25,857 nt of DNA from a virus: the IMG/VR virus record IMGVR_UViG_3300044844_000258, positions 1-25,857 of that record. The stretch is one strand, 5' to 3'. The notes under the pieces are model-generated. The model searched no databases and was not told where the DNA came from. It saw only the letters and a program-made list of their open reading frames with translations. Position numbers and translations under genes: made by a program. Position 1 is the first letter of the stretch; each line of letters starts with the position of its first letter. Positions 17,259 to 25,857 of this stretch are shown in pieces.

Positions 17259-17852
17259 TCACGGAGAGGAGGCATATTCGCGGCGGCGGAACATCCAGAT
17301 TTTTGCACCAGATGAACCCGTCCCAACAAAGCGAGCCTTGAGAATTTTATTCAAAACTGAGCCATCTGCTCCAGATGCAGATGGAAATTTTGCCGCAACA
17401 GAAACACCTGTGTTCGTACCTGTACGTGAGTAAGCGCCTATCATCAGGTGCTGAAGTTTTGGCACACGAGGCATGGATATTTCATAGTCATGCCAGCCAC
17501 TTAATACAGTCGTCGTGCTTGATGGAATCCAATCAGCGGTTACTTCTCTGTACAACTCTATAGAGGTAAAACCATCTAGAGTACCAAACAATCTGTATTC
17601 ATAGCCATCAACAAAATTTGGCGTTTCAAAATTTGTCGATGCACCACTAACAGAAAAATCATAGATAACACCGTCTTTGCCATCGCCAATCGTCACCTTG
17701 TCATACGGATGCCAACCAGAAAACACAACAGGTGCGCCGCTTGCAGTTTCTGCAATAGCCGAAGGATTGTCGCGCAACGCCGTCACGGTCGTGCTTGACG
17801 GTATGCCGCCAACGGCAACCGCTGCGTTTGAAATGCTAGTCCATGTCGCCAT
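17259..17852 (-). CDS. Tail fibre or receptor-binding-like protein
   Basis: This 197-residue beta-rich protein starts MATWTSISNAAVAVGGIPSS, with VTALRDNPSAIAETASGAPV, an opening frequent in phage tail-tip and fibre proteins. The rest is a Ser/Thr/Gly-rich sandwich-like domain with a galactose-binding-like look (YDFSVSGASTNFETPNFVDG, GWHDYEISMPRVPKLQHLMI). The ATG at 17852 overlaps the hub gene stop (TGATG) and is used in preference to a GTG three codons earlier. The gene is more AT-rich than the hub gene. As the last tail gene before the lysis cassette, it is a candidate host-recognition protein. Confidence 0.65.
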   Translation of the reverse strand: MATWTSISNAAVAVGGIPSSTTVTALRDNPSAIAETASGAPVVFSGWHPYDKVTIGDGKDGVIYDFSVSGASTNFETPNFVDGYEYRLFGTLDGFTSIELYREVTADWIPSSTTTVLSGWHDYEISMPRVPKLQHLMIGAYSRTGTNTGVSVAAKFPSASGADGSVLNKILKARFVGTGSSGAKIWMFRRREYASSP

Positions 17853-19747
17853 CAAAGCCACCTATACGGTTGAGGAGTACCGCTTCCATCATTACCACTA
17901 TCATTGAGCCAACGCCACGGCTGGGCTACGCCATTAACGTCAAGCCCAGCATCGGTCAGCCAGGTCCAGAGAACGCCGCCCTTCTCGTTGTCTTCCGCCG
18001 TAAAGCGGTACGTCAGGCCGTTGCGGGCTACTTCTGCCGAGGTGATAAGCCATTCGCCATCGCGTGGCGCACCTGTGAAATCGACATCCAGATAGTGCCG
18101 TATCTGCACAACCGATCCGGTCCAGATGTTCGCGGCATCCTTGGCCGATAAGTCAAAGGTGATTTCCTTGCGAACATCGGAGAAGCGGTCAAGATAGGTC
18201 TGTGCGAGGGAATTGGCGATTGCCTGTGTGCTAATGAACCGGCAGAACAATTCCCTGATCTGCGGCTCACCGCCGTACTGCACTTGCTTCAGGACATCGA
18301 TGTAGACCGAGACGCGGGAATAGTTGCTCTTCTCGGTTACGCTCGGGATCGGCGTGCGTTGCAAATAGTAGACATGTGTCTGAGATGCACGCTCTTCCGG
18401 CTTCTCCTCGATTGAGAAACTGCCAGCAACAATCGCATCGTCATCAGTCAAAAGCGTAGGAGACGGCTGCGGACTGACAGGCTCCATGAGAATCTTTTGG
18501 ACGCGCTCATCCCACCATAGATTCGAGACGGCCTGGAGGCACACCTCGGCTAGAAGTTCTTCGATCTTGTCGGGATCGGTGATCCAAGCCGTGAAATTGT
18601 AGTCTGGCCGATAGGTGGTTTTTGCTGCCGCCCAATCCGCGAAGTTGATGTATTTCGCAGGGATGCCGCCCCAATTAACAAGAAGGTCATAGAGGATTTC
18701 GTGGAATGGCGTAGCGTTGTAATAAAGCACGCGCTGCACGCGGTTGTTCTGACTTTGAGCCGCTGCCGTTGTTCCTGCCAGACCTCGTGTCAGTCCATCG
18801 AAGTAGATGTTGCCGCCAGTCGTTTCATAACGCTGGGCATATTGGATCACCTCGCTGTTGATCCTGACATAGCCAGTTGCGGGATAGTCGCTCAGGATTG
18901 CGCCAGCCACGGTCATGGCCGTTTCTACGTTCGTGATGTTTGAGGCCAGTTCGCCAGTACTCAAATAGGGTGCTGTCAGGTTGGTGTCGGTGATCTTTCG
19001 CAAGATGTCTTTGGCCGTGATCGAAACGCCATTGCGACCTGCGTCGATCTTCTCGATCACATATTCCCGCTGCGTCATGGCTGAAAGCGGTTCGCCTATC
19101 AGCCCTTCGTAGATGTTAAGCGTGTATCCGATGTGGTAAGGATTGCGGGCAAGCCACTTGCTCCAGAAGCTGCCGATCTGGTCTGGATCATAAGCCCTCG
19201 TGGAGACGTAAGGATCGGTGCCTACGTCATTCCAAGGAAAGTCCTTGATACGGACATTGCTAACAGCGCGATAGCCTAGCGGGCTTTTATTGCGCGATCC
19301 CGAGGCCACGTTGAGGACGGTCGGAGCCGTCTGATAGTTCTGCATCGCCGGGATGGCCAAGGATGGTTGATATAACACATCGACCAAAAGCCGAAATGTT
19401 GTTTCTCCTGAAAAAAGCAGAGATGAAGCCCCATCAACAAGCAAAAGATGATCCACACCATTGACTAAAGTCAATGAGCCTGTTGCTGGTTCGACCTGTT
19501 CTGCGATGATGTAATCACCGCTTTCTGTCAGCAGGTTGATGTTGTTATCTTGCCACTCGTAAACGTCATCATTGACGAACCGCAGCGTCAGTGACTTGCT
19601 CAGATCGAGAGCGGATAAGAACTTGCAGGTCTTGTCGGTGTTCCAACAGGCATCGCCCGTTGCATTGCATGGCGAGACGCCAAACGTGCGGGAGCAGAGC
19701 GGCTGGATGATCTCGACAATCTCGACGGGACGCGCTGCAAATGTCAT
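17852..19747 (-). CDS. Tail tip/baseplate hub-like protein
   Basis: This 631-residue protein begins VEIVEIIQPLCSRTFGVSPC and continues CWNTDKTC, a cysteine-rich opening typical of siphovirus tail-tip proteins (BR0599-type). The middle contains repeating beta motifs, including DGASSLLFSGET and GAILSDYPATGYVRINSEV followed by a coiled connector. The C-terminus has a tandem repeat: WTWLTDAGLDVNGVAQPWRW is followed by WLNDSGNDGSGTPQPYRW. It is likely the hub that joins the tail tube to the fibre proteins. It couples to both neighbours through TGATG junctions. The tail-tip role is supported by position; the precise baseplate part is uncertain. Confidence 0.7.
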   Translation of the reverse strand: MTFAARPVEIVEIIQPLCSRTFGVSPCNATGDACWNTDKTCKFLSALDLSKSLTLRFVNDDVYEWQDNNINLLTESGDYIIAEQVEPATGSLTLVNGVDHLLLVDGASSLLFSGETTFRLLVDVLYQPSLAIPAMQNYQTAPTVLNVASGSRNKSPLGYRAVSNVRIKDFPWNDVGTDPYVSTRAYDPDQIGSFWSKWLARNPYHIGYTLNIYEGLIGEPLSAMTQREYVIEKIDAGRNGVSITAKDILRKITDTNLTAPYLSTGELASNITNVETAMTVAGAILSDYPATGYVRINSEVIQYAQRYETTGGNIYFDGLTRGLAGTTAAAQSQNNRVQRVLYYNATPFHEILYDLLVNWGGIPAKYINFADWAAAKTTYRPDYNFTAWITDPDKIEELLAEVCLQAVSNLWWDERVQKILMEPVSPQPSPTLLTDDDAIVAGSFSIEEKPEERASQTHVYYLQRTPIPSVTEKSNYSRVSVYIDVLKQVQYGGEPQIRELFCRFISTQAIANSLAQTYLDRFSDVRKEITFDLSAKDAANIWTGSVVQIRHYLDVDFTGAPRDGEWLITSAEVARNGLTYRFTAEDNEKGGVLWTWLTDAGLDVNGVAQPWRWLNDSGNDGSGTPQPYRWL

Positions 19748-20529
19748 CAGTAGTATCCCGTGACGCCGAGAGAGACGGAGCGATAAGCGTTGATGCCCAT
19801 GTTCACTGGCTCAACGTCTCTGTCGGTCCAGACGAAGCCGACATCGGTCGTGATCTTGGATGGATTGCCAGTGATGAAGAATGGCTGCAATGGAAGCGTC
19901 TTGGCGAAGGGCTCGAAGTAGGTATCGTACCAAGTCGTTGTGAGGTATTCCCAATCGTAAGATGAGGTGACAGCACGCCTCTTGATGATGCGCCCAAGCC
20001 ATTGGCCGGTCTCAGAGAACTGTTGCTGTGCTTCCGTGACGCGGTTGAGGTTGAGCGGCCTATGTCCTCCGTATATCGGGATTGGCATTTGCAATGCAGC
20101 GCCCGCGCGGATGATGCCGATGGCGATGTCCGTGCCATCGTTCACGTTCACTCGCACTTCTCGGACGGTGTAGAGCGACCCAGCATTATTAAAGAACACC
20201 GCGATAGTCGAGTTGTCAGTTGGCGAGATCGTCGCACGAGTGGTGTGACCACCTCCGACTGTTGCCGCCGTGGAGATCGTGACTGTCTTGCCAGATAGGT
20301 TGTGCGCTGCAATGAAGACGCAATCGATAGATACGTCTGCCGCTGCCACAAGCGTCCAGTTATTCGAGCCTGGCGCAAGTTCCCACCGCTGCGATGTGTA
20401 GTCATTGGCAGCATAAGCCGGATTGGTTCCATCGCCAGAGACAGTGCCGGTTATCATGTCCCACAAGATGCGGGCATGGTTTAGCGGCTCATTCGTGGAG
20501 ACGGTATAGTTGCTCGTGGAGATGGTCAT
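19747..20529 (-). CDS. Tail-tip structural protein
   Basis: This 260-residue beta-rich protein includes NEPLNHARILWDMITGTVS, YTSQRWELAPGSNNWTLVAA, the segment CVFIAAHNLSGKTVTISTAA and GVTGYY at the end. Proteins of this kind stand directly upstream of the BR0599-type hub gene in alphaproteobacterial phages. A 'domain of sandwich type for virion surface' is plausible: the IAAHNL segment is a common phage tail motif. Junctions with both neighbours are tight. I cannot give a more specific role. Confidence 0.65.
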   Translation of the reverse strand: MTISTSNYTVSTNEPLNHARILWDMITGTVSGDGTNPAYAANDYTSQRWELAPGSNNWTLVAAADVSIDCVFIAAHNLSGKTVTISTAATVGGGHTTRATISPTDNSTIAVFFNNAGSLYTVREVRVNVNDGTDIAIGIIRAGAALQMPIPIYGGHRPLNLNRVTEAQQQFSETGQWLGRIIKRRAVTSSYDWEYLTTTWYDTYFEPFAKTLPLQPFFITGNPSKITTDVGFVWTDRDVEPVNMGINAYRSVSLGVTGYY

Positions 20530-21141
20530 CTAGCTTGCCATTATGATCCAATTGGTGCCATCGCAAATTAACAGAACCCAAATGCCAGCCGTTCCAGTTG
20601 TTCCTGGCAATAGCGTTGATGCTGCGGCTCCACCTGCTTGAGGGACAACATTAGAAGACGCAGATTGAACGACAAGATTAACCGTCTTTTTAATCAGCAA
20701 TTGTCGCCCTGCATTTGTTGCAGCAGCAGGAAGCGTTATTGTATGAGTGCCACTGGAGTGAGCAATAATGACAGCATAGTCTGTGCTGGAAACCGTATAG
20801 CTGGACGCTGTAATTGTGACCGGAGCAGCAAGGGCAAACGATCCATTGACTTGCAGCTTCGCAGTCGGCGTTGCCGTGCCGATGCCTACGCGATCCGTTG
20901 ATGCGTCTACGAAGACAAGGTTGGCGTCGGTATCTCCCTCGATGCGTTGGTCTACATCAGCGCCAGCATCATTGAAGACGTTGGCCCCTGCGAATGATGC
21001 AGCCGGGACATTCTGAAACAGTTCCTCGCGGGTCTGCTTCTTGGTCTCCGGGACACTTGTATCCACCACCACATAGAGATCATCGGTGGCCGTGTTGGCC
21101 CCGGTCAGTGCTGATAGTGCGCTGATCTTGATGTCGGCCAT
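20530..21141 (-). CDS. Fibre-like virion protein with GIGTATP motif
   Basis: This 203-residue protein starts DIKISALSALTGANTATDD and has the motif RVGIGTATPTAKLQVNGSF at 84-102, the 'GIGT.sPxxkL.V.G' signature of tail fibres and of proteins ending in intramolecular chaperones. After it comes a beta-rich Ser/Thr/Ala domain (TYTVSS-like repeats, then GTHTITLPAAATNAGRQLLI), which is often found in receptor-binding tips. There is no C-terminal chaperone peptidase here. It lies between the tape measure gene and the tail-tip genes. It is probably a virion fibre or decoration component. Confidence 0.6.
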   Translation of the reverse strand: MADIKISALSALTGANTATDDLYVVVDTSVPETKKQTREELFQNVPAASFAGANVFNDAGADVDQRIEGDTDANLVFVDASTDRVGIGTATPTAKLQVNGSFALAAPVTITASSYTVSSTDYAVIIAHSSGTHTITLPAAATNAGRQLLIKKTVNLVVQSASSNVVPQAGGAAASTLLPGTTGTAGIWVLLICDGTNWIIMAS

Positions 21142-23315
21142 CAGGCTATCACTCCGCGAATTGTGCCGCCGTTGCGCTGCGTGCTGTTAAGCTGGTCGAT
21201 GAACTGCCTGGCGAACTTCTCACCAAAGCCCATCGGATCATTCATCATTGTAAACTGGAACGTGGTCGTTGGCGATGCCGCTGCCGGGGCTGCGGATGCA
21301 CCACCGCCACCGCCTCGACGGCCACCACCGCCTCCACCACCGCCGCCACCACCGCCACCGCCTTCGGAGACGCCCTTGATAGCCGCCACTGCGCTCATGC
21401 CCTTGGCAAAGACGGCGGCGTAGGCTGCAAACTTTTCAGCAGGAGTAAGGCCAACCTTCATTGCGTCAACGGCTGCTACAATTGTGGAAACAATGGCTTG
21501 TGCTGCTCCAAGTGCTTTCGCTACCTTTAGCATCTTTTTGCCGCCATTCTGGAATGCAGCCGCCATGCTTCCAAGTCCAGCCTCAACATTCTGCAAATCA
21601 TTCTGAACGCGCATTCTTTCGATTTCATTCAGATCATTTGCGTGTTGCTCCGCACGTTGCCGCATTAGTTCTTTGAACTCTGCATCGAGTTCATCCTTGC
21701 CGGTCAAATGCCCGCGAAGCAATTCCATATCTGCTGCATATTCAGCATCAAGAATTTCGCGCTCAGACTTAAATCCTTCGCGGATCGATTCAAGCCTAGC
21801 CATATAGAATGCGTCTACCTCTTGCGATGGCGAAACGCCCGGGACTATATCCTTGTTTTTGTTATCCTCTTCGGTTTTTATGTTACCGCCACCGACGCCG
21901 CTACCTGCGCCGCCAGCTAAACCTCCACCCATTGCGCCGAATGCCGATGAAACAGCATTTCCTGCTGCTGTACTAAACGCACCAACAAAATCTTCATTGA
22001 CACGAGAAGCCATGCGGCCTGTGAATGCCGACCACTCTTTGTCGAAGTTTGAGGCAAAGGTATTTGTAAATTGAAAGGCCGTGACCTCCCCCACACGGTC
22101 AAAGGTAACGCCCGTGTAAGATGCAATCTTGTTAACAGCATCAATCACATTGTTGACGTAGCCGATAGCCTTATTCGTCATGTCGGCAAGTGTTCTTAGA
22201 ACAGCATTGCTCATGCCAACAAAGGCTGCTCCAATAGCATTAGGAAGGTCCAAGAAGACTGTTTTTATGCCATCATAAGCGTTGATAAATCCACGAGCGA
22301 TAAAATTGGCTGCGTCCTTTGCAATGTTGACCACATCAACGCCAATCGCTGACTTGATGTCATCGCGGAACACAAAGGCTGCGACAGAAGCACCTGCTAA
22401 CGCACCAACTATAAGTCCAATCGGGTTTGCAAGCATTGCAAGCGTGATTGACTTGATGGCATTGGATATAGCAATCAGTCCACCTGCCGTAGTTGTCAAT
22501 CCCGTCAGAACGGCGGGAGCATAGAATCCTGCGATTGCAGCAACAGCAATCGCTGCATAAGGCGCAATCTCTTGAATTGTACCGCCGAGCTTTACCATTG
22601 CCTCAGCACCGGCAACAGATACGTTCAAGAATGCTTGTGCTAGAGGAAGCGTGGCAGAAGCCAACTTGATCATTGCCCCTTGGCCTACAGCCCCAAGATC
22701 GCTGATCGTATCGTTGAACTGTTCCGCCCTTTTGGCAGTGTCTTCCGAAATGGAAATCCCAAGATCGATTGCCCGCTGCCTCATTTGCTCGAGGCCATTC
22801 GATCCGGCATTGAGCATCGGGATCATTGATGCACCGGAACGTCCAAGCAACTCCATCGCTAGGGCTGTCTTTTGTGCGCCATCTGGGATTGACGCAAAGC
22901 GGTCCGCCAAGTCCATAAGAACTTGGTCCGTGCTACGCAGTGAGCCATCAGAATTCTGGATGGCTACGCCGAGTTGATTGAACAGATCAGCATTCGTGAC
23001 CATGCTCTTGGACAGGAATCTCATTCCTGTTTCGAGGTCAGTAAATGTCAGATCGGAAAGTTTCGCCGCATAAGAAAGTTCAGACAAAGCCTTGGTTGTA
23101 GAGCCAACCTTTTGAGCAGATTTGCCCACGGCATCAGCGAAATCAATTGCTGCCTTTCCAGCAGCAACAAAAACACCAGCGGAAAGTGCCCCGGCGATCC
23201 CAGCCGCAGCGCCCTTCGCAAACCTGCTTAGTGAACTTTCAGCCTTGCCCAGTGCTCGATCAAGGCCAGACGAATTGCCGGTGATGTTGACTTCGATCCC
23301 GCTAACTTGAGCCAT
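21141..23315 (-). CDS. Tail tape measure protein
   Basis: This 724-residue protein fixes tail length and is injected with the DNA. It has the usual plan: an N-terminal helical part (VNITGNSSGLDRALGKAESS, then RFAKGAAAGIAGALSAGVFVAAG), a long coiled and hydrophobic middle with membrane-like spans (AAIAVAAIAGFYAPAVLTGL, ANPIGLIVGALAGASVAAFV), a charged coiled coil (DELDAEFKELMRQRAEQHAN) and a glycine-run region near the C-terminus (GGGGGG tracts, about 21300-21362). At about 1.5 angstrom per residue this predicts a tail near 110 nm. Its start overlaps the -1 frame chaperone ORF by 14 bases. Confidence 0.9.
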   Translation of the reverse strand: MAQVSGIEVNITGNSSGLDRALGKAESSLSRFAKGAAAGIAGALSAGVFVAAGKAAIDFADAVGKSAQKVGSTTKALSELSYAAKLSDLTFTDLETGMRFLSKSMVTNADLFNQLGVAIQNSDGSLRSTDQVLMDLADRFASIPDGAQKTALAMELLGRSGASMIPMLNAGSNGLEQMRQRAIDLGISISEDTAKRAEQFNDTISDLGAVGQGAMIKLASATLPLAQAFLNVSVAGAEAMVKLGGTIQEIAPYAAIAVAAIAGFYAPAVLTGLTTTAGGLIAISNAIKSITLAMLANPIGLIVGALAGASVAAFVFRDDIKSAIGVDVVNIAKDAANFIARGFINAYDGIKTVFLDLPNAIGAAFVGMSNAVLRTLADMTNKAIGYVNNVIDAVNKIASYTGVTFDRVGEVTAFQFTNTFASNFDKEWSAFTGRMASRVNEDFVGAFSTAAGNAVSSAFGAMGGGLAGGAGSGVGGGNIKTEEDNKNKDIVPGVSPSQEVDAFYMARLESIREGFKSEREILDAEYAADMELLRGHLTGKDELDAEFKELMRQRAEQHANDLNEIERMRVQNDLQNVEAGLGSMAAAFQNGGKKMLKVAKALGAAQAIVSTIVAAVDAMKVGLTPAEKFAAYAAVFAKGMSAVAAIKGVSEGGGGGGGGGGGGGGRRGGGGGASAAPAAASPTTTFQFTMMNDPMGFGEKFARQFIDQLNSTQRNGGTIRGVIA

Positions 23316-23481
23316 GTAACAGTTCCTTTAATTCCTCTACATCGGCCCTAGTCAGCTTCCCTGCGTATGTTTCGCCTGGCTCTTTCGGCTTCTTCAACTC
23401 GTATTCCAACCACCACTCGGGAATGGTCATCTCCCAGAACTCGCTAGGCTGAATTCCCCATTCCCTCGCCCATAGATACAT
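23302..23481 (-). CDS. Second tail assembly chaperone frame (T-like)
   Basis: A 59-residue frame starts MYLWAREWGIQPSEFWEMTI and ends VEELKELLHGSS, in the -1 frame relative to the chaperone gene 23493-23870. The 'WGIxPxEFWxMTxxE' pattern is that of tail assembly chaperones of GTA-like and siphovirus tails. The frame is open upstream to the slippery site at 23559-23565, so a ribosome shifting there makes a 189-residue fusion (104 + 85 residues). It could also start alone at ATG 23481, behind a weak GGAACGGG. Its end overlaps the tape measure start by 14 bases, as is typical for lambda G-T. Confidence 0.75.
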   Translation of the reverse strand: MYLWAREWGIQPSEFWEMTIPEWWLEYELKKPKEPGETYAGKLTRADVEELKELLHGSS

Positions 23482-23492
23482 CCCGTTCCAGT

Positions 23493-23870
23493 CTAGTTCT
23501 CCATACTCTCCATGATCTTCGCCCTCGCCTTCGACTGGCTTTCGGTCTGGGCGTCTGGATTTTTTGACTTGTCCTCAGTTGGAGAGAACGATGTCAGCAC
23601 AAGGCTGATCAAGGAAGTGATGCTGTCTTGGTCGCCCGTCACCAGTTCCTCATAGACCTGTTCGTCCGTGACCTTGACACCTGCCGACTGCAACATCTTG
23701 GAAAGAACGAAAGCGATGTGGCTGACAGGCGGGCGACCTTGGCTTGTGCGAACGGCAATGTCCGTGAAGGATATGTCGCCCATCTCGATGGATCGCATCA
23801 GTTTCATGGAAGGGACGAAGCGATACTCTTCACCCTTCCACTTGATTGTTAGCTCCCGAAAAATTGCCAT
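23493..23870 (-). CDS. Tail assembly chaperone (G-like)
   Basis: This 125-residue protein occupies the lambda gpG position between the tail tube and tape measure genes. The N-terminal half (IKWKGEEYRFVPSMKLMRSI) is a compact beta-start domain seen in phage chaperones; the rest is helical (SHIAFVLSKMLQSAG, DEQVYEELVTG, SLISLVLTSF), ending in a charged linker. Codons 103-104 form the A-AAA-AAT slip site, so a share of ribosomes should change frame and add the T-like part. Both forms together would wrap the tape measure before tube polymerisation. Assignment rests on position, family resemblance and the frameshift signal. Confidence 0.8.
   Translation of the reverse strand: MAIFRELTIKWKGEEYRFVPSMKLMRSIEMGDISFTDIAVRTSQGRPPVSHIAFVLSKMLQSAGVKVTDEQVYEELVTGDQDSITSLISLVLTSFSPTEDKSKNPDAQTESQSKARAKIMESMEN
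23559..23565 (-). promoter_or_regulatory. Predicted -1 ribosomal frameshift site A-AAA-AAT
   Basis: On the minus strand the bases read A AAA AAT in the zero frame of the chaperone gene (Lys103-Asn104), an ideal X-XXY-YYZ heptamer. An SD-like GAGGA (23576-23572) lies six bases before it and could stimulate slipping. The -1 frame has a stop five codons upstream and stays open for 85 codons afterwards, ending at 23302. Confidence 0.75.
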
Positions 23871-23872
23871 GA

Positions 23873-24262
23873 TTACGAGGCCGTGAACGTAATCGTGCCA
23901 GAAGACTGGATCGAGGCCGTGAAGGTCGTGGCGTCTGCCTGTTCGCCGGTCACAGCGAAGCTGGCAAGGAAGAAGTTGCCGGTGAACGATCCAAGGCCAA
24001 GCAGTTCGATGGTGTAGGCTTCGAGCAGCGCCGAGGCGGTGCCAACGGCAAGCGCCAGGAAGGTGGTGTCCTCAAGGATGCCTTCGACTTCGGCATCGAT
24101 GGAGCGGACACCGACATCAGCCAGCATCTTGCGCCAGCCGTTGTCATCCTTTTCGGTGATGTCAATCGGCTCATTGTTGATGGTGAAGCTATCGGCACGA
24201 GCACCAGCTACGGCAGTCGAGCCACGCTTGATACGGACTTTGCGTCCAGCGATTGCGGGCAT
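23873..24262 (-). CDS. Major tail tube protein, short paralogue
   Basis: This 129-residue protein has the layout of TP901-1-type tail tube proteins: GRKVRIKRG, ADSFTINNEPIDITEKDDNG, WRKMLADVGVRSIDAEVEGI, then the LGLGSFTGNFFL strand pair and EQADATTFTASIQSSG at the end. By eye it matches the neighbouring 226-residue protein over about 120 residues with around 55% identity. It lacks the C-terminal Ig-like domain. It should form rings of the tail tube or a sub-part of the tube. The AAAGGAA site is good. No frame disruption is seen. Confidence 0.8.
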   Translation of the reverse strand: MPAIAGRKVRIKRGSTAVAGARADSFTINNEPIDITEKDDNGWRKMLADVGVRSIDAEVEGILEDTTFLALAVGTASALLEAYTIELLGLGSFTGNFFLASFAVTGEQADATTFTASIQSSGTITFTAS

Positions 24263-24278
24263 GTTTCAGTTCCTTTCT

Positions 24279-24959
24279 TTAGGTCACGGGTCCACGGATG
24301 TTGGAGAAGGCCACCGTAGACCCTACGCTATTGGTGGCGGTTACACGGCACCGGATATACTTTCCGGTGTCGGAGCCTGTGAGTGTGTATGTCGTTCCGG
24401 TAGCAGATGCGATGTTGGACCATGACGGGTCATTGGGATCAGCAGCATTGGCGCGCTGCCACTGGCGGGCGAACGTGATCGTGGCATCGCCAGCCCATGT
24501 GCCGTTTGTCGTGGTCTGGACGTTGGTTCCGGAGAGCGTTCCGGTGATCGCCGGGAGAACCGTATTGTATGGGCCGATTGTGGCCGTCATGTTCTCGCCG
24601 CTCTCAAGTGTGGCGGTGAAGGTCACAACATCAGCCTGTTCTGCGCCGATCTGAAGGCCTTGGAGCATGAAGTCGCCGGTCAAGGTGCCGATGCCGCTGA
24701 TCGTAACCACACATTCCTTGAGGAGCGCCGTGGTGGCGGTGCCTACGGAATCCGCCAAGAGGACGGTATCCTTTAGCACGCCTTCGATCTCGCAAGAGAC
24801 AGAGCGCAAGCCAACATCGCCTAGCATGGTGCGCCAGCCGGAATCGTCCTTGTCCGTGATGTCGAGCGGCTCATTATTGATCGTCACGCTGTCAGCACGA
24901 GCGCCCACGATGTTGGAGCCGTTGCGGCTTATGCGAACTGATCGGCCAGAAATAGCCAT
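24279..24959 (-). CDS. Major tail tube protein with Ig-like C-terminal domain
   Basis: This 226-residue protein contains a tail tube domain (1-about 130: VRISRNGSNIVGARADSVTI, DITDKDDSGWRTMLGDVGLR, LTGDFMLQGLQIGAEQADVV). It continues with a C-terminal Ig-like domain (about 135-226: LPAITGTLSGTNVQTTTNGT, ITFARQWQRANAADP, TYTLTGSDTGKYIRCRVTAT), the last part being a standard Ig/Fn3-type fold. Ig-like domains on tail tube subunits project outwards and are thought to help adhesion. It precedes its shorter paralogue by 16 bases. Which one builds most of the tube is unknown; both may be incorporated. Confidence 0.8.
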   Translation of the reverse strand: MAISGRSVRISRNGSNIVGARADSVTINNEPLDITDKDDSGWRTMLGDVGLRSVSCEIEGVLKDTVLLADSVGTATTALLKECVVTISGIGTLTGDFMLQGLQIGAEQADVVTFTATLESGENMTATIGPYNTVLPAITGTLSGTNVQTTTNGTWAGDATITFARQWQRANAADPNDPSWSNIASATGTTYTLTGSDTGKYIRCRVTATNSVGSTVAFSNIRGPVT

Positions 24960-24998
24960 GCAAGAACCTCTTCTTTGGCCGTGATTATATCACGGAAA

Positions 24999-25427
24999 CT
25001 ATGCAATCCACAATACACGGTACAAGATGAGGCCGCGCTTGGTCTTGCCGTCAGGATCGCGCGAGAAATTGCAAGAATCAAGTTCGGTGGTGATGTGCGT
25101 GACACCCGCAATGGAAAGCGGCTGGCGGCGCATCCGGCCATCGACGGCATCGACTACGGTCTTGAGATCGAGCATGGATGCGGCACGATCCCACACATCA
25201 ATCTGAACGATGGCCGATCCACCGAGATCATCCTTGCTGTCGAACGGATTGATTGTGTCAGCCCCGATGGTGATGAACGGGAATGCCGATTCCAACTCAC
25301 TGTCAGCCGCCTGGGGGACATCGGTGAAGATCGCCACGAGCGGGCTGTAGTAGGTGCTGAGAAGGCTTGTCACGGCGCTATCGTTAAGCCGGTTGTAGAC
25401 TGCCGTCTGGAGGTCATCGGACTTCAT
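24999..25427 (-). CDS. DUF3168-type tail completion protein
   Basis: This 142-residue protein begins MKSDDLQTAVYNRLNDSAVT, continues with VPQAADSELESAFPFITIGA and IVQIDVWDRAASMLDLKTVV, and ends DPDGKTKRGLILYRVLWIA. This matches DUF3168, the family containing tail terminator/completion proteins that cap the tail tube and join it to the head. It overlaps the upstream HK97-gp10-like gene by ATGA and precedes the tail tube genes, the canonical order. Confidence 0.8.
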   Translation of the reverse strand: MKSDDLQTAVYNRLNDSAVTSLLSTYYSPLVAIFTDVPQAADSELESAFPFITIGADTINPFDSKDDLGGSAIVQIDVWDRAASMLDLKTVVDAVDGRMRRQPLSIAGVTHITTELDSCNFSRDPDGKTKRGLILYRVLWIA

Positions 25428-25857
25428 TTCGTTGTCTTCTCCGCGCGTGCCTTGGCCTTGGCGATTGCAATGTTAACCAATTCTAGCATCCGTGGGATTG
25501 CTCGCTCAACAGCAGGTATCCATGCAGGACGTTTGCCCATCTTGAATGTGCCGAACTCAAGGTGATAGGCGTATGGCAATCGGCTTCCGATTGCGCGTCC
25601 ATATTTTCCTCGGTTTTCAATGTAGGTTGATGTCAGCAAAGCGCCTCCATCGGTGGCCGGGGCTTCGCCTTCTTTTGACGCCTGATGCTTGATGTCTCTG
25701 TTTTTTCCCTTGTAATAAATCCGACCTGTTTTCGGCGGGTTCTCAATAGCATTTCTAACGTCTCTCAAAGCGTTTTGTGCGGTTGCTTTGACAATCAGCT
25801 CTAAAGAGTTGCCAAGGTCTTTCCCATAGGCTTGCAAGGCCGCGTTGACCTCTTTCA
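25424..25857 (-). CDS. HK97 gp10-like head-tail connector (start just off the edge)
   Basis: The frame extends to the window end. The open codons at the edge read (A)TG AAA GAG GTC AAC, so the true ATG very probably has its A one base outside; an internal TTG start would lose six residues. The protein (about 144 residues; window portion VNAALQAYGKDLGNSLELIV, then PYAYHLEFGTFKMGKRPAWI) shows the YHLEFGT...RPxxxP motif of HK97-gp10-type minor tail or neck proteins. The central segment is basic (YYKGKNRDIKHQ). It precedes DUF3168, the usual order. Confidence 0.75.
   Translation of the reverse strand, partial: KEVNAALQAYGKDLGNSLELIVKATAQNALRDVRNAIENPPKTGRIYYKGKNRDIKHQASKEGEAPATDGGALLTSTYIENRGKYGRAIGSRLPYAYHLEFGTFKMGKRPAWIPAVERAIPRMLELVNIAIAKAKARAEKTTK

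Follow-up and report, generated by a model that had tools for sequence, protein, structure and literature searches.

The slip site of the G/G-T tail assembly chaperone genes of phage lambda is G_GGA_AAG. These genes lie between those for the tail tube and the tape measure, and a -1 shift yields a longer G-T product beside the short G (in the part of PMC5009743 available to us). Such tail-chaperone frameshifts are already well known in tailed phages. In the accessible portions of other reports, 6-7% shifting was measured for an HK97-like chaperone cluster (PMC3711429), 2397 chaperone frameshift genes were annotated in SEA-PHAGES genomes (PMC10885494), and the frameshift was called the norm for tail chaperone genes and was reported from most described Rhodobacter capsulatus phages, with RcZahn as an exception (PMC8601537). 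Alphaproteobacterial GTAs carry g10 and a second small chaperone gene, and the RcGTA chaperones are treated as two genes in the accessible part of PMC11409702. The locus described here is, judged from its sequence, with high probability a tail assembly chaperone pair of the lambda G/G-T type with a -1 frameshift, now seen in a GTA-like chaperone family.

The locus resembles lambda G/G-T in its place in the tail gene cluster, in the direction of the shift and in its short and long products. Unlike lambda, it encodes proteins similar to the GTA-gp10 and TAC_6 families, and its site is A_AAA_AAT. With Escherichia coli dnaX it shares an A-run heptamer with an upstream Shine-Dalgarno (SD)-like sequence and, as predicted here, a downstream hairpin, but the dnaX heptamer is A_AAA_AAG and its product is shortened rather than extended (PMC3711429, in the part available). 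Both an SD-like sequence and a predicted hairpin are present here, whereas some tailed-phage shifts seem to lack stimulators (in the available part of PMC5009743). With the GTA pair the locus shares both domain types in identical order; by contrast, the GTA T gene has its own start codon, may lie in any frame relative to G and is not preceded by an X_XXA_AAZ heptamer leading into T. The R. capsulatus phages share the chaperone-gene frameshift and are likened here by description only; the sites are not given in the available text of PMC8601537.

The analysed window (the whole stretch of DNA taken from a virus record) is 25,857 bases long with 54.9% GC. Its minus strand carries, in order, genes for a tail completion protein, two tail-tube-like proteins, G, T and the tape measure protein, such that the two overlapping frames sit downstream of the major tail protein gene and upstream of the tape measure gene, as in lambda. 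G opens at ATG 23870 and closes after 125 codons at TAG 23495-23493. It matched PF11836 (Phage_TAC_11, GTA-gp10) at E 3.4e-4 and 21.1 bits, below the curated cut-off of 27.8, and phrog_2115 (tail) at E 7.1e-6. PF11836 was matched at E<=0.1 by 12 of 13 aligned G members (best 9.8e-6), and on these profile matches G is a remote relative of the family. T matched PF09550 (Phage_TAC_6) at E 0.0088 and 16.9 bits, also below the curated cut-off (23.4), with all 13 aligned T members matching at E<=0.1 (best 7.8e-7); by the same kind of evidence T is a remote relative of this tail assembly chaperone family. An NCBIfam search of G and T returned nothing at E<=0.001, solved-structure searches with the G and T profiles returned nothing below E 0.02 and no hit related by name, and megablast of window positions 17852-25857 against named phages found no match; protein searches among named phages gave one record each.

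Features of the chaperone locus, in window coordinates
Feature	Position	Strand	Details
Major tail protein (Phage_tail_2)	23873..24262	-	profile matches; directly upstream of G
G-like frame, GTA-gp10-like tail chaperone	23493..23870	-	125 aa, 14.0 kDa; profile matches
TGA bounding the -1 frame upstream	23575..23577	-	sets the 82-nt G/T overlap
Shine-Dalgarno-like GAGGA	23572..23576	-	6 nt before the heptamer
Slippery heptamer A_AAA_AAT, zero-frame register	23559..23565	-	in TCA AAA AAT, inside the 82-nt overlap
T-like -1 frame, post-slip	23302..23558	-	85 codons + stop; PF09550-type chaperone domain from near DW at 23493
Predicted hairpin CGCCC...GGGCG	23520..23553	-	first arm (23553-23549) begins 5 nt downstream of the heptamer; second arm 23524-23520
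ATG in T domain (DWNG-M), rival separate start	23479..23481	-	11 nt past the G stop; four codons into the domain
Tape measure protein gene	21141..23315	-	phrog_8462, E 1.2e-43; the T frame ends inside it

A preliminary description of this DNA had read the heptamer from zero-frame TCA AAA AAT, with GAGGA six bases ahead of it, a possible separate T start at 23481 and a -1 frame open for 85 codons that ends within the start of the tape measure gene. These elements were all recovered, the T frame running to TAG 23304-23302, past the tape measure ATG at 23315. The stop said to bound the -1 frame upstream is likewise present, but as TGA 23577-23575 it lies four codons before the first AAA codon and not five. 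Since 85 sense codons follow the slip, the fusion would comprise 104+85 = 189 residues; the predicted products are 125 aa (14.0 kDa) and 189 aa (21.75 kDa). When the overlap in the window was resampled from pooled codon usage while its amino acids were held constant, X_XXA_AAZ arose in 4.7% of cases and any heptamer in 26.7%. The window alone is therefore a weak case, and it is conservation in relatives that settles whether the heptamer is there by more than chance.

Conservation of the heptamer in related phages had been proposed as a check, and it was examined in two scans of viral contigs (66 loci and the best 80 of 98, with many contigs shared by both). Of 150 sequences, eight were left uncounted: one was reversed (L001), five were without one of the two matches (L059, L067, L103, L108 and L109), and two (L148 and L149) were handled apart. 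In each of the 142 remaining rows with both G and T matches, T lay at -1 and an in-register heptamer was found in the overlap, even in L062 with an overlap of just 25 nt. Many contigs were present twice, and the 142 rows represent 63 distinct stretches, five of which are cut by a contig end. After these five were dropped, 58 complete stretches (the window and viral contigs) were combined with Oceanospirillum phage GJ44 and phage PB15 into a set of 60, which are related sequences falling into 18 clusters at 85% identity. T at -1, a retained T frame and X_XXA_AAZ in register were found in 60 of 60 stretches. The heptamers were AAAAAAT (41), AAAAAAC (13), AAAAAAG (3), GGGAAAT (2) and CCCAAAG (1), with the A_AAA_AAY type accounting for 54 of the 60. 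The letters shift together with the encoded amino acids (K-N, G-N, K-K and P-K) while the slippery pattern is kept; the heptamer is thus conserved through amino-acid changes. The codon preceding the P-site AAA has A as its third base in 15 of the 18 cluster representatives, across six different encoded residues; elsewhere in the G and T genes NNA codons make up 16%, and AAA and AAG occur at 35:65.

Nine more loci came from a third viral-contig scan (best 80 of 218, six new contigs) and a genome scan (three loci), and eight of them carry the heptamer. The exception, L231 of Rhodovulum kholense, and Agrobacterium phage Rivra (L270) also place T at -1 but have no canonical heptamer; in each, either the slip site is a non-standard one or T is translated separately. 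A_AAA_AAG was found in L067 and in Paracoccus phage Shpa (L269), and GGGAAAA and GGGAAAC occupy the equivalent place in other further relatives. The dominance of A_AAA_AAY may be unexpected to a specialist: as far as the accessible part of PMC5009743 goes, A_AAA_AAC shifts far less readily in E. coli than A_AAA_AAG, a point against the shift, and A_AAA_AAT is not named. The known G/G-T frameshifts gain a well-bounded family of uncultured phages whose signal is predicted in full. The public records of GJ44 (L148), PB15 (L149) and Shpa annotate T as its own CDS despite an in-register heptamer in the G/T overlap.

If ribosomes enter the -1 frame at the heptamer, coding constraint should change at that place, and the substitution pattern matches. 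Among 14 close-family representatives, the fractions of substitutions at zero-frame positions 1, 2 and 3 were 0.42, 0.30 and 0.65 in the 90 nt before the heptamer and 0.27, 0.34 and 0.23 in the 39 nt after it, position 2 being the wobble position of the -1 frame. By sliding windows, the change falls between the heptamer and about +15. The switch is not sharp, as a 15-nt window from +6 still has zero-frame position 3 most variable (0.27 compared to 0.23), and the pattern of the -1 frame becomes clear at +15 and beyond. In L046, L060 and L063 a zero-frame stop occurs 18-30 nt past the heptamer, yet the -1 linker is conserved. As expected of a frameshift of the lambda G/G-T type, the second frame is constrained from about the slip site onward and has no start codon ahead of its domain.

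Candidate stimulatory signals flank the heptamer in the layout known from dnaX; both are present in the window and often conserved in position among relatives, with weak covariation. GGAG, GAGG or AGGA was found at -20 to -4 in 12 of 18 cluster representatives compared to 12.4% of background windows. The outer stem of the hairpin, starting 5-6 nt past the heptamer, was predicted for 26 of the 36 distinct stretches folded, and the mean 40-nt folding energy of 23 sequences over 120 offsets had its minimum of -13.2 at +9 (best elsewhere, -10.3). The window folded alone (97 nt) gave no signal (z -0.32; its own folding z ranged only from -0.3 to -1.4), and the hairpin emerged from comparison across relatives. 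No outer-stem pair had changed on both sides; the outer stem says little here because it is nearly invariant, and its conservation could alternatively reflect dual coding. Among the extension pairs, both sides had changed in nine cases, as many as in 11 of 500 shuffles, i.e., weak covariation. The diverged members L144, L148, L149, L221 and L228 did not show the hairpin. From these predicted folds, a hairpin downstream of the heptamer is probable.

GTA loci served as an internal control. PF11836 loci were read at 35 places, among them the best 30 of 56 and three weaker ones from G001. Prior to counting, L234, L235 and L236 (with GGGAAAG, AAAAAAA and CCCCCCG, respectively) were set aside as prophage-like, leaving 32 GTA-type loci (L232, L233 and L237-L266). 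The GTA megatron gene lies downstream on the same contig in all 31 loci examined for it (L233 and L237-L266), two with a match in pieces or partial. A start codon for T occurs no more than 12 codons ahead of DW or NW in every one of the 32, and ahead of the motif in none of the 59 motif-bearing phage-type stretches. T lies at -1 relative to G in 20 of the GTA-type loci, at +1 in 11 and at 0 in one, and none of the 32 has an X_XXA_AAZ heptamer fitting a -1 shift into T; the one A-type heptamer, GGGAAAT in L255, stands before a T at +1. In L241, whose T lies at -1, an in-register G_GGG_GGC occurs 6 nt ahead of the stop codon of G, and T also has an ATG at -4; this is a possible weak site, which we judged to be chance in GC-rich DNA.

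This apparent lack of the shift in GTAs was unexpected, and no statement to that effect was found in the open-licence literature searched, as far as its accessible text extends. We give about even chances to the view that one chaperone pair has two expression modes, in which phages keep a stimulated -1 shift at mainly A_AAA_AAY, whereas in GTAs the shift has been given up and T, in whatever frame, is initiated on its own. In that case GTA tails would assemble without a G-T fusion and the fusion ratio would be inessential to the chaperone pair itself. The contrast offers a natural experiment on the need for the fusion in tail assembly.

The GTA homologues also lend weight to the proposal that T of the window is a separate protein, with ribosomes that have terminated G re-initiating, or being coupled, at ATG 23481, since they do begin T separately. 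The short distance of this ATG from the G stop, its presence at the equivalent position in 56 of 60 stretches, and the database records of GJ44, PB15, Shpa and Rivra, which give T as its own CDS, point the same way, as does a TTG in the T frame just ahead of QW in the more distant, heptamer-bearing L229 and L235. However, initiation at ATG 23481 would delete the conserved DW, which T starts of the GTA type precede in 32 of 32 loci. The codon is CTG in L063 and TTG (itself a possible start) in L065, and PB15 has a later ATG. The linker ahead of DW is conserved in the -1 frame, and in 59 of 59 motif-bearing stretches the T frame contains no ATG, GTG or TTG from the heptamer up to [DN]W; nor was a start codon found in the first 10 T-frame codons of GJ44, which is without the motif. 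A separate start would also leave the conservation of the heptamer unexplained. The preliminary description had held that a T frame always started at its own ATG would count against the shift; by sequence, the internal ATG is not placed as a domain start, though it is mostly kept. As the GTA control combines an own start before DW with no fitting X_XXA_AAZ heptamer, re-initiation is considered improbable here.

Two further explanations carry less weight. Poly-A runs can cause polymerase slippage, such that the six A's of the window might give mRNA indels rather than ribosomal slippage. Yet runs of more than 7 are named in the available part of PMC3711429, in relatives with GGGAAAT, GGGAAAA, GGGAAAC or CCCAAAG no base is repeated more than 3-4 times in a row, and relatives retain the X_XXY_YYZ register; transcriptional slippage is thus very unlikely. 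Least credible of all is that the heptamer arose by chance and T is unexpressed or decayed. At p = 0.047 for an in-register X_XXA_AAZ in the window, a single instance would prove little, but the heptamer is conserved in 18 clusters with changing letters, and the T frame is kept in every stretch of the set of 60.

Taken together, the conserved heptamer, the switch of constraint, the misplacement of the T ATG as a domain start and the GTA contrast support the programmed -1 frameshift proposed in the preliminary description, and from these comparisons the shift is real and conserved and very probably functional. We infer that most ribosomes translate the 125-residue G-like protein and that a minority slip by -1 on A_AAA_AAT and continue into the T frame, probably helped by the upstream SD-like purine stretch and the predicted hairpin 5 nt downstream. 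Tandem slippage would give the 189-residue G-T fusion with the junction ...SKN-SRRP.... By analogy to lambda, G may coat the tape measure and T may recruit the tail-tube protein.

Two minor observations concern the remainder of the window. The adjacent tail-tube paralogues at 23873-24262 and 24279-24959 (minus strand) are 54% identical, the upstream one having approximately 100 extra C-terminal residues; the pair is present in 11 close relatives inspected, and a single place is found in the outgroup loci L229, L230, L148 and L149. At the opposite end, a Mom-family protein (PF25680, E 1.5e-43) encoded at 59-724 on the minus strand suggests a putative Mu-like DNA base modification; it adjoins a ParB-like protein at 711-1376.
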